NCBI GenBank assembly: GCA_030159075.1
Contig: BROG01000376.1
Location: forward strand, 323,001-387,000
Source of the DNA: Atrina japonica
Taxonomy: Eukaryota > Mollusca > Bivalvia > Pterioida > Pinnidae
Direction of reading: 5' to 3'
Length of the DNA: 64,000 nucleotides
In this document: piece after piece, positions 32,641 to 57,886 of the stretch
Position numbering within the stretch: position 1 is the first letter of the stretch
How the letters are laid out: each line of letters starts with the position of its first letter
Translations under genes and position numbers: made by a program
The notes under the pieces: generated by a model
What the model was told of the DNA's origin: nothing
Database searches by the model: none
The model's input: only the letters and a program-made list of their open reading frames with translations

Positions 32641-34185
<1,545 letters not shown>

Positions 34186-35988: not shown

Positions 35989-36056
35989 CTGTCAACTTTG
36001 GCTGCTTTATGCCAAGCACCATACTCTGGTAAAGGAGATCCATCTTTATTTTTTCC
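35989..36056 (-). CDS. KLC: KLC exon: TPR5-TPR6 loop, second part
   Basis: 68 nt; acceptor TTTCCAG, donor GACAG|GTTTGT (a weak donor). Encodes GKNKDGSPLPEYGAWHKAAK then VD, matching the KLC segment with DG-S--EYG-W-KA-KVD. The intron between this exon and the previous one contains the 37-40 kb anomaly. Confidence 0.94.
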
Positions 36057-36689
36057 CTGGAAAAGAAACAAACTATATATTGTAGGTTTAGTAGGAGAAA
36101 ATCCATGAAAAGAGAAAATCCATACATACAAATATCAAAACCAGAAATATACATATTTCATTCTAGCAAACTCAGTATGAAACAAGATATACTTAGACAG
36201 CAAAATGATCAAGACACAACCAATTTAGTACTAGAACGAACTGACCACTAGTCATAACAGAATCAAAAAATAGATATAATCACCCCTGTCTACATAATAT
36301 TTTTTCTCTTAGAAGATATATGACTGTGATCTGTCACCTATGTGGCCTTCCAAAACATTTTGATATGAGCTAACTTGTCCATCATGGTATAAGATTGAAT
36401 ACATCCTATAGATATCGGCAGTGTACAGAAACAACTACTATCTCAATATTAAAAGAAGAGTGGGCATAAATGGTATTATTATATCTCATAGATGACATAC
36501 AGTCAGGGATTGATTGAGAGTCATCACATGTAAGGGCGATAAAACTTTGAGTCTCCCCATTAGAAGCCCCTTGTGGGTTTTAGACACATTTATCATTTGT
36601 GAAAGGGAACTCTCTGAGGTGTTTCGAATACAAGCATAAACAAAAATGTCAGATCACAGCAGACAGCATTTTCAACTTCCTGATGCTAA

Positions 36690-37095
36690 TGTAATTTATG
36701 GTTGCCATTGGTAAATATGACATGCCTTGGGTATATACAATTTTTGGGTCTCACTACAGCCAGGGCAATAATTGCGAAATCATACATCCATGTAGATCAC
36801 TCAGAAACAATCTGTTTTTCAATTCATGGAGCTGTTCTGGAGAAGAAGATTTTTATAAGAGGGGTACCTTTTTGGACCTATTCTGCTCCGCCCTGGATCC
36901 ACTCCCGGGCCAATCTAGCTGAAAACTACAAAATTGGTAAAGGACCTTGAGCACTTGCTTCCTGTCAAGTTTCGTCAAAATCCCTTCAGTGGTTTTCAGA
37001 GAAGAAGTCAAAAACATGAAAAGTTTATGGACGGATGACGGACGGGGAGTGATCACAATAGCTCACTTGAGCCTTCAGCTCAGGTGAGCTAAAAA
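36690..37095. repeat. Dispersed repeat of bivalve type
   Basis: A block ending gatcacaatagctcacttga and a small hairpin (agctcacttgagcc/agctcaggtgagct) followed by a run of A. I recall this ending, with ggttttcagagaagaagtc and ggacggatgacggac upstream, as common in bivalve genomes. No ORF is meaningful. A corrupted second copy starts near 39379. Confidence 0.5.
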
Positions 37096-37119
37096 ACACT
37101 AAAACACTCAATATTCACA

Positions 37120-37254
37120 ATTTTCGGCCCCTTGGCCTTTATCAAGTGAAAGATGACAATTATTTGCAATAAAGCTGTTTATTATGCAGACTTGATACTA
37201 TATAACACTATAATACAGATATTGTCATCATATTTGATAAAGGCCAAGGGGCTG
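37120..37254. repeat. Inverted repeat at the edge of the anomaly
   Basis: Left arm ggccccttggcctttatcaa (37125-37144) and right arm ttgataaaggccaaggggc (about 37233-37252), with a loop of about 90 bp. The complementary continuation of the left arm (aattttgtgaatattgag) reappears only near 40056, after the anomalous block. Confidence 0.75.
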
Positions 37255-39370
37255 TGATCGGGGGGGGGATTAGAGTTAGTAGGTGGGGTGTGGGTCTTTT
37301 GATGCGTGGGGGATGCGGGTTCCGGAGGGGGGGTGGCGGGGTGGGAGGTTCGGGTCGGCTTGTGGGTGGGGCGGGGGGGTCGGTGGGGGGAGTTGGGCTG
37401 GCGGCGGGGTATGGGGCCGTGGATGGTGGTACTCCGGGGGCGGACCGAGTGTAGGCCCCCCCCTTGGGGGGCCGGTTTTGGGGTGCGTGGGGTGCGGGTG
37501 GGGGTTGGGGGGGCGCGGGCGGGGATGGCGGGGTGTGGCTATGTGGTGGGGTGGTGGTTGGGGAACGTTGAGGGGTGGGAGTGGGGTGTTTGTCGATGGT
37601 GGGTGTGGTGGTAGGGGTTGAGAGTGTTGAGGGTAAGTGTAGTTGTCGTTCGGGGGCGGTGTGGGAGTATTGGGGGGTGTGGGGAGGGTTAGGTGGCTAT
37701 GTGATTTGGGTGGGTGGGAGGGCGTGTATAGTTTGTATGAGCACACTTGTTTGTTGGTGGTTGTTTGGTTGTGGTGGTGGTGCAGTTTGGTTGTGCTTTG
37801 TTTTTTTGATGTTTTTTTGTTGGAGTTTTGTGTTGTTGGGATGTGGGTATTGTTTGGGAGTTGTAGGGGGGAGGGGATGGCGGGTGGGGGGATTGGTGTT
37901 TGGCGGTTGGGTTTAGGGGGGGGAGCGGTGGTTAAGGTGGGGGTGTGTTGTGGGTATGGTCGCGGTGGGGTTGGGGTGGGTGTTGTTTGGGGGGGTGGTG
38001 TGCTGGGGAGGTTGGGAGGATGGATAGTGGTGTGTGGAGATGGATCAGAAACATTATGTTGGGGCGGATGGCGTCTGGTGGAGAAGCAGATGGGGGGGAG
38101 CCTGGTGGCGGGGGATCCTGTTTTGGTGCGGTCATGTGTGGGGCCGGGTATCGTCCCTGCATGGGAGGGGGGATGGGGCCGGGTTCGGGGGGAAGGGGGT
38201 TGGGGGTTATGGTGTGGACCTACGGTGTTGGGAGTTGCGTGGGTCGTGGGGCGGTGGAGTAGAGGGTGGTGTAGGTTGGGTTAGGTTGTGTTGGTTTTTT
38301 GGTGTGGGGTGGGGGAGGGTGGGAGAATGGAATTGGAGGTGGGGAGTTGGGGGGTTGGGGTGGTTTTGGTTTGAGTGCGGGTTTTGGTTGTTTGTCGGTT
38401 TATTACGTCGGGTAGTGTTGGTTCTCTGGATGGCTGGAGGTTTGGGTCCGTTATTGGGAGTGTGTGGGTAAGGGTGGTGTTGGGGGGGTGTTCGGGGGAT
38501 TTGTGTGGTTTGTTTAGTTTTATTATATTTTGATTGTGGGTGTCCTGTTCTGGTGGTAGTGTGTGAGGGGGCGGCGGTCTGGGCGGTGTTAGAAGGTGAC
38601 GAAGGGGGGTGGGGAGTGTTGTAGATTGTTTGGGTGTTGGGGGTAAGGGGGGGATGGGTGGGGAGGGAAGTGGGGTTTTGGTGGGGAAAGGCGATGAGAG
38701 GGGGGGTGTCTTCTACTATGTTTTATAAGGGAGGGGTGGTGGGTGTGGGGGGGTTGGTTGCTGGCTGGGGGGTTGTGTGGTGTGGGGGCGGTGTACCTTT
38801 TTGGGGCGTGTGTCGGGGTTATTGGAGAGAGTGGGGTGGGGGGGGGGTATGGGCTATTGTGGTGGGGGTGCGGGGTTGTGGGGGTGGTTGGTGGGGGCTG
38901 TGTGGATGGTGGGTTAGTTGGGGGGTTGGAGAGGGGTGGTTAATGTAGCAAAGGGGGAAGGTGGGGTGAGTGGGGTACGGGGAAGGAAGTTGAGTGTGTG
39001 GTGTGGTGGGCGATGGGGAGGGTCCGGTGGCCCCAGTGGGGATGGGAGACTGTTCGAGCGTGGGGGGCGGGGGCGGGGGGTGGGGCGGTGGGGCATCACT
39101 TATGTGAGAACTGGGGGCCGGCCCTTTATTTCCGTTTGTTTGTTGATATGGTGTTTTTTTTTTTGGATTTGCCTTTTATTGGGTTAGGTGGTTAGGGGGT
39201 GGTTGCCGGTAGCATGGGTGCGCGATGATAGGGGTTGGGGGTTGGGGTTGTTTTTAGTAAGGTCGGTTTATATCTTTTGGGGGACTACCTGGGTGGGGTG
39301 TTGGGTTGTTGGGTGGGTGGGGGTGGGTGGGGGGAAAATTGTGTAAAGGGGGGAGCGGGGGGGGGTTGGG
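37255..39370. other. G/T-only block, probable sequencing/assembly artefact
   Basis: About 2.1 kb almost without A or C on the plus strand, mostly irregular G runs with T, starting abruptly. It resembles neither a regular satellite nor the AT-rich surroundings. The long ORFs here (Gly/Trp/Val-rich on one strand, Pro-rich on the other) follow from composition only and should not be annotated. Confidence 0.75.
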
Positions 39371-39790
39371 GTCCGCACCTTGAGCACTTGCTTCCTGTGG
39401 TGGGGGGTAGGGTGGTGGTGGGGGAAGTTTCGTCAGCAAAATCCCGTCAGTTGGTTTTCAGAGAAGAAGTCTTGTGGGTGGGGAAAAAAGGGAATGAAAA
39501 GTTTAATGGACGGATGACGGGACGGGGAGTGATCACAATAGCTCACTTGAGCCTTCGGAAGTATTGTGGCTAGTGGGGGTGGTGGGGCTGGGGTTGAGTG
39601 TGAGCTAAAAAAACACTAAAACACTCGGTTGTGGTTGGGCCTCTTTGTGAATATTCACAATTTGTTTCGGGTTGGGGGGTGGTGGGCGCGGCGTGGGTAG
39701 GGGTTGATGGTGGAGCCGCTTGGCCTTTATCAAGTGAAAGATTGACAATTATTTGCAAATAAAGCTGTTTATTATGCAGAACTTGATATC
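39371..39790. repeat. Corrupted copy of flanking DNA with G/T insertions
   Basis: It follows 36950-37190 in order (ttgagcacttgcttcctgt, ggttttcagagaagaagtc, gatcacaatagctcacttga, tggcctttatcaagtgaaag, aagctgtttattatgcaga), but G/T-rich strings are spliced between the pieces and single bases are added. Real duplications do not diverge this way. Confidence 0.75.
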
Positions 39791-39838
39791 TTGTTTTTTT
39801 GAATTTTCTTTTTTTTTTATATATCTACTTTTTTTTTT

Positions 39839-39871
<33 letters not shown>

Positions 39872-40030
39872 TTTTTTTGTTGTATTATTTATTTCTTCTT
39901 TTTTTTTTGATTTTTTTTTTCACTATTTGATGGTGGGTTTTTTTTTTTTTGAAACAATTTCTTTTGTTTTTTTTTTTTTTTTTTTTTGGTCTTAGATTTT
40001 ATTGTTCATTTTTTTTCATATTTGATAAAT
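39791..40030. other. T-rich low-complexity stretch
   Basis: Long T runs with scattered other bases. It may be the corrupted continuation of the loop and right arm of the inverted repeat: catatttgataaa appears near 40017. Part of the same anomaly. Confidence 0.65.
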
Positions 40031-40912: not shown

Positions 40913-41059
<147 letters not shown>

Positions 41060-43199: not shown

Positions 43200-44813
<1,614 letters not shown>

Positions 44814-45126: not shown

Positions 45127-45968
<842 letters not shown>

Positions 45969-48663: not shown

Positions 48664-49933
<1,270 letters not shown>

Positions 49934-50449: not shown

Positions 50450-51226
<777 letters not shown>

Positions 51227-51500: not shown

Positions 51501-51591
51501 CTTCTTGTTGTGGTGGTTCCTCATCATCATCAGGAAAACCTAAATCTAGGGACTGTGTTGACTGATCTTGTTCCTTCTCACTCTCAGAATG
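51501..51591 (-). CDS. KLC: KLC exon: acidic linker with LFP-like motif
   Basis: 91 nt, phase 0 in and phase 1 out. Acceptor CACATAG, donor GAAG|GTAAGT. Encodes HSESEKEQDQSTQSLDLGFP followed by DDDEEPPQQE. The LGFPDDDEE part lines up with the leucine-phenylalanine-proline acidic motif (LFPNDEDD in vertebrate KLC1) that is known to fold back on the TPR groove and autoinhibit cargo binding. Here it reads L-G-F-P rather than L-F-P. It lies directly after the microexon cluster. Confidence 0.9.
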
Positions 51592-51639
51592 CTATGTGTA
51601 AAGACAGAAATAATCCATGTTATAGTTATAAAAAATCAC

Positions 51640-52510
51640 ATAAACTTAGTACATGTCACAGGCACTTATCACATAGACTTAGTACATGTTACATATACTT
51701 ATCACATAAACTTAGTACATGTCACATATACTTATCACATAAACTTAGTACATGTTACATATACTTATCACATAAACTTAGTACATGTCACATATAATTA
51801 TCACATAAACTTAGTACATGTTACATGTACTTATCACATTTCACATAAACTTAGTACATGTGACATATACTTATCACATAAACTTAGTACATGTCACATA
51901 TAATTATCACATAAACTTAGTACATGTTACATGTACTTATCACATTTCACATAAACTTAGTACATGTGACATATACTTATCACATAAACTTAGTATATGA
52001 TACATGTACTCATCACATAAACTAAGTACATGTTACATGTACTTATCACATTTCACATAAACTTAGTACATGTTACATACACTTATCACATAAACTTAGT
52101 ATATGTCACATGTACTCATCACATAAATTTAGTACATGTCACATGCACTTATCACATAAACTTAATACATATACATGTACTTATCATATATCACACAAAC
52201 TTAGTACATGTCACATGTACTTATCACATAAAACTAGTACATGTCACATGTACTTATCAAATAAACTTAGTACATGTCATGTGTACTTATCACATAAACT
52301 TAGTACATGTCTTATGTACTTATCATATATCACACAAACTCAGTACATCCCACGAAGTTATCAAACATGAACTTAGTACATGACATGCTGTTATCACATA
52401 TCAGGTGAACATGTCACATATAGTTATCACAGATTCATAGGAGTCAACTACATGTCAGATTATCATACGCCACATAAACTTAGAACATATCACATGTACT
52501 TACTACACAG
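51640..52510. repeat. Minisatellite, about 33 bp unit, about 25 copies
   Basis: Units of cataaacttagtacatgtca-catgtacttatca in the KLC intron between the acidic linker exon and microexon 5. ORFs are repeat products. Confidence 0.95.
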
Positions 52511-53731: not shown

Positions 53732-53761
53732 AGATATTGAGTCACTTGGTGATTCTATAAT
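53732..53761 (-). CDS. KLC: KLC linker microexon 5 (30 nt)
   Basis: Acceptor GTTTACAG, donor GTAAGT, phase 0, one codon longer than its siblings. Encodes IIESPSDSIS, with two Ser-Pro-like positions changed to a more acidic context (ES instead of KS). It is the last copy before the acidic linker exon. Confidence 0.8.
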
Positions 53762-54171
53762 CTGTAAACATGTTTCAGATAATCTTTATGGCAAAGTTTT
53801 TACATATAGTTTTTCCCCTTTTTTCTTAAGATGTACAGATAATAAAAATCCTGGTATTAAGTTGTATGATAAAAAGGTCATCAGATATCCCATATTACAT
53901 GAAAAAGTGTAGGACTTGGCAATATTATCAGATGAGATAAAAAATGTGTGGTAAACAGAAGCCATCATATCTCCCTTGTTATACTGAAGTATATGATTGA
54001 TATAAAATATATAAAATATCCCTGATTAATCATTATGGCTGGCTTGTGTCAAATTTGAATTTTTCCAAATGTATTCAAATATTAATGAAATAATAGAGAA
54101 TAAATCTTAACTCTTTTATTTGAAACATTAAGGTTAAAATCCTGGGAATGTATCTAAATGATTCTACTTAC

Positions 54172-54198
54172 AGGTACTGTATCACTTGGAGATTTAAT
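54172..54198 (-). CDS. KLC: KLC linker microexon 4 (27 nt)
   Basis: Acceptor GTTTACAG, donor GTAAGT, phase 0. Encodes IKSPSDTVP. Flanks match microexons 3 and 5 closely (AAACATGTTTCAGAT-like text on the acceptor side), so these three are the most recent duplicates. Confidence 0.82.
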
Positions 54199-54653
54199 CT
54201 GTAAACATGTTTCAGATAGTCTATATTGCAAAGTTATCGAAGATTTTTTCCTTTCCCTATCTTTTTCTAATCATTTTCATTAATGATGTACAGATCTAGA
54301 GGTCATAAAAATTACTGATATAGAGAAGATTCTATGATAAACAGATCATCAGATATCCTACATTGCATGGACAAGTGTATGATTTGTTATTAAATGAGAA
54401 ATCACCTGTTATAGTTAGAAAATTATGTGATTAATAAAGACCATTAGATATCCCTTGTTTTACTAAAGTTTATGACTGATAGATATCATAAGACATCCCT
54501 TATTATTCTTTGTGGCTGGCTTGTGTCACATTTAAATTTGTCAAAATGTATGCAAATATTGATAAAATAATAGATAATCAATGAATTTTAACTTTTTTCT
54601 TGAAATTTTAAGGTTGAAATTCTGGGAATGCAACTGCATATTTAAATACTTAC

Positions 54654-54680
54654 AGGTACTGTGTCACTTGAAGATTTAAT
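54654..54680 (-). CDS. KLC: KLC linker microexon 3 (27 nt)
   Basis: Acceptor GTTTACAG, donor GTAAGT, phase 0. Encodes IKSSSDTVP. It differs from its neighbour microexon 4 mainly by Ser for Pro, so it alone lacks the Ser-Pro dipeptide. Confidence 0.82.
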
Positions 54681-55176
54681 CTGTAAACATGTTTTAGATC
54701 ATCTTAATTGCAAAATTTTCAAATACAGTTTTACTTTCATTTTCTTAATGTATGGAAGTCTTAAAAACCCCTTGATATTGTATCACAAAAAAGGTCATCG
54801 GATATCCCAAATTACATAAAAAAGTGTATGATTTTGCACTGTTATCAGATGAGAAATCCCTTGTTATAGCAAAAATGTGTGTGATAAAAAGAAACCATCA
54901 GATACTCCTTGTTATAGTGAAAAGTTATATGATAAACATGTTTAACACTGCACACTTCCAACCTGTCTAAAACTTTTGTGTTATTCTGAGAGAAAATATT
55001 AATATGATTTTCAGTTAAAACAGAAATCAAAAGATCAACTATTCTATTATGAAAGTTTGTCTTTGCCACATTTAAAGACCATCAAAATGTAAGCAAACGA
55101 CAATTACGTACTAGAGAATTAATTTGATAGAGATAAAAGCATGATAATTGCTGGGAATGTGACTACATATACTTAC

Positions 55177-55203
55177 AGGTAATGGGCCAGTTGGTGATTT
55201 CCT
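55177..55203 (-). CDS. KLC: KLC linker microexon 2 (27 nt)
   Basis: Acceptor TTTTCAG, donor GTAAGT, phase 0. Encodes RKSPTGPLP, a variant of the microexon 1 peptide. Flanking intron text also resembles the other copies (a TGGGAATGT-like stretch beyond the donor side on the plus strand, AAACATATGTT beyond the acceptor side), so the exon was duplicated with its introns. Confidence 0.82.
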
Positions 55204-56115
55204 CTGAAAACATATGTTCCAGGTGATCTATATTGCAATATTGTTTCAGTAAATAGAGTATGGTTACCAGATATCATAAGATATCCCTTGCAATAGTAAA
55301 GAGTGTATGATTAGCCGATGTCATAAAATGAGATATAATTTATAGTGAACATTGTATGATAAATGCATTTGTAGAAGCCATCAGATATTTCTATAACATA
55401 GCAAAATGTGTAGACTTGGCAAATGTCATCAGAGAAGATGTAACTTGTTTTAGTAAAAATATGAAATAAAGATGCCATCAAATATCCCATAATACAGAGA
55501 GTGTGTGTGATTCAATCAGATATCCCATGTCATTCCATAAAAAGTGTGACTAAATAATGTCATCAGAAATTTCTTGTTACTCCAAATATTGAGGCCATCA
55601 GATATCCATTGTTTTAGTAAAAAGAATATGATTGGCAGATGTCATGATATGAGATATCTCTAATAACAGTGAAAAGTGTGATTAACAAAGGCCATCTGAT
55701 ATCCCATTAAAGCGAAAAGTATATGATCAGCAGACGTCGTCATGAAATATCACTCATTATAGTAAAGTGTGTGATGAACAGAGGCCATTGGATATCACTT
55801 GTTTACTGCTGTAAAATTTCACCAATTTTCTGTTGTTTTGTACCAATAAGCAGATGTTACTTGATCACTGAAATTTTAACACATCTGAAACCCTCGTGTT
55901 ATACTCGGAGAAAATTTTGATGTAAGTTAAGTTAAATCACGCAATTCAGATATCCATAAATTCATTATGAAAGCTGGACTGTGCCACATCTAAAGTTGAT
56001 TAAATGTGTGCAAACCATGATTAAGTATTAGAGAATAAATTTGACAAGAAAAAAGTGCCCATTTACAAATTGTTATAGAATAAATGTTGGGGATGTTACT
56101 ACATTTAATACTTAC

Positions 56116-56142
56116 AGATAACGTGCCACTTGGTGATTTAAT
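56116..56142 (-). CDS. KLC: KLC linker microexon 1 (27 nt)
   Basis: Bounded by TTTTCAG and GTAAGT, phase 0 on both sides. It encodes IKSPSGTLS. It is the first on the transcript of five homologous microexons, so it is supported by repetition as well as by splice sites. The peptide has a Ser-Pro site. It falls in the linker between the KLC coiled coil and the acidic LGFPDDDEE segment. Whether it is always included or alternative cannot be read from DNA. Confidence 0.82.
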
Positions 56143-56739: not shown

Positions 56740-57425
56740 CAATAGAATGATCCAAAGATCAGATTCCAAGATATGTAGTATAATCCTTAGATATGTAGAA
56801 TGATCTTAAGATCAGTAGAATAATCTTAAGTTCAGTAGAATGATCCTAAGATCAGTAGAATGATCCTATGATAAGTAGAATGATCCTAAGATCAGTTGAA
56901 TGATCCTAAGTTCATAGAATGATCTTATGATCAGTAGAATAATCCTAAGATCAGTTGAATAATCCTATGATCAGTAGAATGATCCTAAGATCAGTGGAAT
57001 GATCCTAAGTTCATAGAATAATCCTATGATCAGTAGAATGATCCTAAGATCAGTAGAATAATCCTAAGATCATTTGAATGATCCTAAGTTCATAGAATGA
57101 TCCTATGATCAGTAGAATGATCCTAAGATCAGTGGAATGATCCTAAGTTCATAGAATGATCCTATGTTCATAGAATGATCCTATGTTCAGTAGAATAATC
57201 CTAAGATCAGTTGAATGATCCTAAGTTCATAGAATGATCCTATGATCAGTAGAATAATCCTAAGATCAGTGTAATGTTCCTATGTTCATAGAATGATCCT
57301 ATGATCAGTAGAATGATCCTAAGATCAGTAGAATAATCCTAAGATCAGTTGAATGATCCTAAGTTCATAGAATAATCCTATGATCAGTAGAATGATCCAA
57401 AGATCAGTAGAATGATTCCAAGATC
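56740..57425. repeat. Minisatellite, about 20 bp unit, over 30 copies
   Basis: Units of agtagaatgatcctaagatc and variants, in the KLC intron between the coiled-coil exon and microexon 1. Confidence 0.95.

Positions 57426-57601: not shown

Positions 57602-57886
<285 letters not shown>

Follow-up and report, generated by a model that had tools for sequence, protein, structure and literature searches.

Can a kinesin light chain (KLC) gene adjust the length of its product's linker by splicing? The question is raised by a locus of the bivalve Atrina japonica, where five small and similar blocks with exon-like borders lie within an otherwise ordinary KLC gene, between the exons for the coiled coil and those for the TPRs. 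Kinesin-1 is kept off until cargo binds in part by the linker that leads up to the LFP-acidic motif; whether the length of this linker matters is, to our knowledge, an open question. Below, we describe the gene and the blocks, weigh what they could be for, and compare them with related light chains; the window is the whole 64,000-nt stretch of DNA that was analysed.

Candidate microexons in the linker of a kinesin light chain gene

The window encodes a bivalve-like KLC on its minus strand, running from 64000 to 32488 or lower, as an earlier sequence-only reading had proposed. Coiled-coil and TPR exons were found in order with a human KLC1 probe (Table 1). The heptad-repeat exon is 85% identical to human KLC1 over 71 aa, and the joined 189-aa stretch around the linker matched human KLC1 in the structure PDB 9pmb_C at E = 2.4e-96. 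TPR repeats were recognized by Pfam TPR_10 in six stretches and by TPR_12 in five. The KLC exon at 64000-63930 is truncated by the window edge and the preceding exons lie beyond it; further C-terminal exons, judged by eye, seemingly continue to ~24.8 kb. The linker exon contains the LFP-acidic motif, in which the vertebrate LFP is replaced by GFP, the same as in molluscan relatives; the pattern L[DE]LGFP occurs in the best 120 of 183 relatives.

Table 1. Exons and candidate exons of the Atrina KLC gene, in the order of transcription (window coordinates)
Feature	Positions	Strand	Length (nt)	Description	Basis
Coiled-coil exon	57641..57886	-	246	heavy-chain-binding heptads; phase 0 at both ends; ends ...QVTVSQ	KLC1 identity, PDB 9pmb_C, splice borders
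Microexon m1	56116..56142	-	27	IKSPSGTLS	AG/GTAAGT borders, copy alignment
Microexon m2	55177..55203	-	27	RKSPTGPLP	AG/GTAAGT borders, copy alignment
Microexon m3	54654..54680	-	27	IKSSSDTVP	AG/GTAAGT borders, copy alignment
Microexon m4	54172..54198	-	27	IKSPSDTVP	AG/GTAAGT borders, copy alignment
Microexon m5	53732..53761	-	30	IIESPSDSIS; 3-nt insertion relative to m1-m4	AG/GTAAGT borders, copy alignment
Linker exon	51501..51591	-	91	LFP-acidic motif SLDLGFPDDDEE; enters in phase 0	borders, motif in relatives
Linker end and TPR1 exon	50946..51174	-		ends ...LNILALVY(R)	KLC1 probe, PDB match, borders
TPR2 alternative exon T2a	49832..49919	-	88		KLC1 probe, borders, one-or-other use in relatives
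TPR2 alternative exon T2b	48835..48922	-	88		KLC1 probe, borders, relatives
TPR3 exon	45846..45947	-	102		KLC1 probe, borders
TPR3/4 exon	45148..45231	-	84		KLC1 probe, borders
TPR4/5 alternative exon T4a	44649..44738	-	90		KLC1 probe, borders, relatives
TPR4/5 alternative exon T4b	43281..43370	-	90		KLC1 probe, borders, relatives
TPR5 exon	40924..41023	-			KLC1 probe, borders
Last TPR exon	34033..34141	-		TPR6 by homology to KLC1	KLC1 probe, borders

Other features of the locus include a 99-bp unit, repeated 3.1 times at 50681-50988, which by eye is a copy of the last part of the TPR1 exon and the splice donor that follows, so that donor-bearing exon fragments remain in the intron. Minisatellites lie in the introns on both sides of the microexon array, at 56768-57425 (20-bp unit, 33 copies) and at 51635-52403 (33-bp unit, 20 copies). 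From 36001 to 40000, GC content rises to 49%, with a GC skew of +0.53, while the other 4-kb bins have 30-37% GC. No Rfam family was matched at the gathering threshold between 44000 and 64000.

The microexons sit between the coiled-coil exon and the LFP-acidic exon. Their peptides, the AG before and GTAAGT after each block, and phase 0 were as first reported in all five, and none contains a stop. Because the exon ahead of the array ends in phase 0, the one after it opens in phase 0 and the blocks are symmetric, each subset keeps the reading frame, which bears out the count of 32 in-frame combinations. The placement in the linker between coiled coil and TPRs was also correct and can be sharpened: the array precedes the LGFPDDDEE (LFP-acidic) exon, and would therefore alter the distance from the coiled coil to the LFP motif, not that from the LFP motif to the TPRs. 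Without the array, the flanking exons join in frame and leave 25 residues between KKYD and LDLGFP; the various subsets would add 9 to 46 residues, all five giving the full 46 and hence at most 71 residues over this interval.

A background of similar blocks was estimated by scanning both strands of the 64 kb for AG, then 24, 27, 30, 33 or 36 nt, then GTAAGT. The scan gave 20 matches, five of them the array; five of the other 15 lack an in-frame stop. In a KLC intron at 41140-41117, a 24-nt block with these borders (KSDKDNFD) has a pyrimidine fraction of 0.20 and an AG-free zone of 2 nt; it probably arose by coincidence and gives the array a useful standard of comparison. As judged from the letters, the microexon array is real, frame-neutral and splice-competent-looking.

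Descent, constraint and competing readings

Pairwise identity and a profile search both indicate that the five microexons are diverged copies of one unit, in agreement with the initial proposal that an exon-intron unit was duplicated serially. The accompanying claim that the surrounding introns are homologous held downstream and for ~30-60 nt upstream, but further upstream the resemblance is weak (48% mean pairwise identity at -110 to -26). The unit begins ~30-60 nt before the exon and extends at least 200 nt beyond it. Averaged over pairs, the five copies are 87% identical in the 25 nt that precede the exon, 79% within it, 92% from +1 to +12 and 63% further downstream; downstream identity also separates two subfamilies, m1-m2 (68%) and m3-m4-m5 (75-79%). 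The profile found the five copies at E <= 3.2e-27, with the next match in the 64-kb window at E = 3.1, and thus no sixth or decayed copy in the window. An assembly artefact is ruled out, the copies being only 52-79% identical downstream, as are five independent chance blocks, by the common splice signals and descent, though chance blocks do occur.

What the copies have kept bears on a rather unlikely alternative, that the array is a near-neutral by-product: an exon-like block would have arisen in a repeat-rich intron, been copied locally, and be spliced rarely or never. The surrounding introns are indeed rich in tandem repeats, and the absence of the array from the best 120 of 183 relatives agrees with such an origin. 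However, the most conserved stretch of the unit runs from the 3' splice site through the exon to the 5' splice site: in the five-copy alignment, the mean identity of the exon is reached by 65 of 280 scored 27-column windows, all overlapping this splice-site/exon core, and by none of the 187 windows that lie elsewhere. Beyond the core, the highest intron window has 77% identity, so that the exon, at 79%, is itself hardly conspicuous. All five copies are intact, with no decayed copy in the window. When neutral decay was simulated on a star tree, which overstates the independence of the copies, five AG..GTAAGT blocks without a stop survived with p ~2e-5 (0 of 20000) if the rate was that of the downstream intron, and with p ~2.5e-3 (42 of 20000) if it was the slower one given by the most similar copies. 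The sole indel within the exon is of 3 nt, and all four pairwise indel events there are multiples of 3, compared with 11 of 39 downstream and 6 of 24 upstream. The five intact copies, the conservation peak on the splice signals, the GTAAGT in each copy and the 3-nt size of the exon indel argue against a by-product.

The encoded peptides, on the other hand, provide no such argument. Pairwise differences at codon positions 1, 2 and 3 number 25, 14 and 18 of 90 each, and a search for protein-level purifying selection across these positions found no excess of silent change. With substitutions spread over the codon positions, the peptide appears to drift as splice signals and frame are kept. The lack of amino-acid constraint fits a spacer, and equally idle exons, as the by-product reading would have it.

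GTAAGT is present at all five 5' sites, the microexons themselves ending in CT rather than AG. At the 3' sites, the pyrimidine fraction is 0.45-0.55, versus 0.55-0.75 in the gene's other exons, and the AG-free stretch is 20-22 nt, some other KLC exons having less (11-17 nt). The microexon acceptors look rather weak, which would suit a by-product; weak acceptors and tiny size together would also lead one to expect partial inclusion. Each of the five has a TGC at -32 to -37, farther upstream than the nearest AG; seven of the 15 other scanned blocks also have a TGC in the preceding 60 nt.

It is also possible, if unlikely, that the microexons are modular phosphorylation sites and not a spacer, each adding a peptide with Ser or Thr, and that splicing decides how many proline-directed kinase sites lie next to the LFP-acidic switch. 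S-P occurs in m1, m2, m4 and m5, serine or threonine accounts for 17 of the 46 residues, and ISPSED is found where the array would align in the linker of human KLC1 (PDB 9pmb). Yet m3 has no S-P pair, nor does the constitutive Atrina linker between KKYD and LGFP, and the codon positions, as described above, show no protein-level constraint. Highly improbable is a Dscam-like mutually exclusive array, in which one of the five would be chosen to give a near-constant linker length and a variable peptide: in its favor, the homologous copies stand in tandem and hardly differ in length, the gene's TPR exon pairs are mostly exclusive in relatives, and in one of six docking-site tests, that with 18-mers of the downstream intron, the best sum (78) was above the highest of 12 shuffles (76). 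Against it, the best sums of the other five tests (62, 63, 77, 89 and 87) did not exceed their shuffled maxima (64, 64, 77, 89 and 90), so that the docking-site signal is weak or absent, and the copies are all symmetric, so that the frame imposes no exclusivity.

Linkers and TPR exon pairs in related light chains

A protein search with the linker gave 183 matches, each a cluster at 90% identity, of which the best 120 were read (117 with molluscan organism names, three without a name). Linker lengths and TPR exon types were read by text patterns and species labels taken from the listing; the counts cover these 120 entries, isoforms inside clusters or ranked beyond 120 being outside them. The array is absent from all of the best 120 of 183, in which what the two flanking exons encode is either directly joined or separated by short inserts of other kinds, so that the array is presumably skippable. 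When proteins were searched with just the array, 12 candidates came up and none reached E <= 10; as far as seen the array appears lineage-restricted. Linkers of the best 120 relatives are 16-36 aa long, the 25-aa Atrina linker without the array falling within this range; by eye, the nearest among those listed are from Ostrea and Pinctada.

Other molluscs carry inserts of their own, known from protein sequence. In Mytilus, a 14-aa insert, DVETLIKQMKQTQQ, at the junction where the array lies in Atrina is present in 16 rows and missing from 17 others, and the rows of M. galloprovincialis and M. edulis include both 21- and 35-aa linkers, indicating that the junction takes optional inserts elsewhere. 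Set against other scallops, three Mizuhopecten rows show a 12-aa insert; a 2-aa insert (VS) occurs in 18 rows of Magallana gigas or Crassostrea angulata. The linker junction so seems to tolerate optional inserts. Beyond the LFP motif, three Crassostrea gigas isoforms (P0091-P0093) have a different linker sequence, DMKLSNETDLDKIVQRYRV..., after PPQQE, which suggests another alternative exon there.

The KLC gene also contains two tandem duplications of TPR exons, T2a/T2b and T4a/T4b. As the T2 exons are 88 nt each, inclusion of both would shift the frame. Among the best 120 of 183 relatives, 31 have only the T2a type, 88 only T2b, none both, and one could not be parsed; to judge from these proteins, T2a and T2b behave as mutually exclusive exons, exactly one being used. 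For the 90-nt T4 exons, the corresponding numbers are 59 with T4a only, 47 with T4b only, 11 with both and three unparsed; at least three of the 11 (P0041, P0044, P0049) are NCBI isoforms of Crassostrea virginica. Both T2 types occur among the rows of at least 12 named species, including oysters, mussels, limpets and an abalone, and since bivalve and gastropod isoforms share them, the T2 pair looks older than the bivalve-gastropod split. A third protein search (best 120 of 5670) retrieved nearly only other TPR-repeat proteins, with one named KLC1 (P0212). We found no report of molluscan KLC exon pairs in the open-access literature, and these pairs may be weightier than the microexons.

A proposed optional spacer before the autoinhibitory motif

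The explanation that we favor, and to which we give an even chance of being right, is a serially duplicated set of five symmetric cassette microexons that lengthen the disordered KLC linker and likely tune autoinhibition; from the sequence we infer their splicing-in, variable inclusion and effect as a spacer. Such an adjustable spacer is favored by the 25-aa linker lying within the range of relatives, by the optional insert of Mytilus and by the absence of amino-acid constraint, and disfavored by the rather weak 3' splice sites and by the fact that no listed relative among the best 120 of 183 has the array.

If any subset were spliced in, the stretch that separates the heavy-chain-binding coiled coil from the LFP-acidic autoinhibitory segment would gain 9-46 residues, and the tether from the coiled coil to the LFP-TPR module would range from 25 to 71 residues, or ~9 to 26 nm of contour length by a simple polymer estimate. 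The tether between the LFP motif and the TPRs would not change, the array being upstream of the motif; the expected effect is on the places where the LFP-TPR module can dock in the folded motor and on the ease of its release. The most likely effect would be on the ease with which the LFP-acidic segment and TPRs fold back in the inhibited motor, and through it on the threshold for activation by cargo.

Published work on the motor bears on this proposal. According to one study, the TPRs are bound in cis by the LFP-acidic region on their N-terminal side, which helps to keep the motor autoinhibited; with this region included, the KD of KLC1 for a W-acidic peptide goes from 0.64 to 8.20 uM, a more than tenfold weakening, and that for the Y-acidic JIP1 peptide changes little, from 0.95 to 2.21 uM (PMC6214655). 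In a second study, the KLC linker is unstructured and at least one TPR domain forms the shoulder of the folded motor; the same study reports that the motor does not need its TPR domains to adopt the inhibited fold in vitro, which disfavors our explanation (PMC9481135).

How the array compares with known systems depends on the feature considered. Schistosome micro-exon genes (MEGs) have coding regions made up mostly of such exons, and their proteins are associated with secretions of the parasite, while in Atrina five copies occupy one linker of a motor-subunit gene. The Mytilus insert has the same linker place and is present or absent within species, but is single and unrelated in sequence. Vertebrate KLC1 likewise owes diversity to alternative splicing; the known mammalian KLC1 forms differ at the C-terminal tail, not through a linker microexon array. 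Brain-specific Klc1 isoforms are mentioned in another article (PMC4801060). With the neuronal microexon program of bilaterians (eMIC/Srrm234), the array shares in-frame exons of microexon size; it may also share the UGC close to the 3' splice site, a TGC lying 32-37 nt upstream in all five copies but within 60 nt of seven of the 15 other scanned blocks too. Its AG-free zone of 20-22 nt, weak tract and GTAAGT do not fit the eMIC architecture as described (PMC8797185), and the long AG exclusion zone and long pyrimidine tract of eMIC targets are not found. The TPR2 and TPR4 pairs resemble tandem duplicated exon substitution events, a class of mutually exclusive exons arising by within-gene tandem exon duplication (PMC9741552); the microexons differ from it in that joint inclusion or skipping of all five keeps the frame. 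The array would thus be of a known kind, symmetric cassette microexons (27-30 nt and canonical borders in 5/5, symmetric phase), newly placed in a disordered linker before the KLC autoinhibitory motif. The earlier remark that no such array had been described in KLC agrees with the open-access literature, older subscription papers lying outside that scope.

If the microexons are spliced, they would provide a natural series of linker lengths in otherwise identical light chains, allowing a direct test of the effect of length. A further, doubtful extension is a combinatorial adaptor, in which 32 linker forms that tune the autoinhibitory switch, two TPR2 exons and two TPR4 exons, both of the cargo groove, would allow a single gene to make as many as 128 light chains; if this were true, a cell would set cargo choice (by the TPR exons) and activation threshold (by the linker) separately through splicing. 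Together, the array and the TPR exon pairs point to a motor adaptor that may have been diversified via splicing, not via gene copies.
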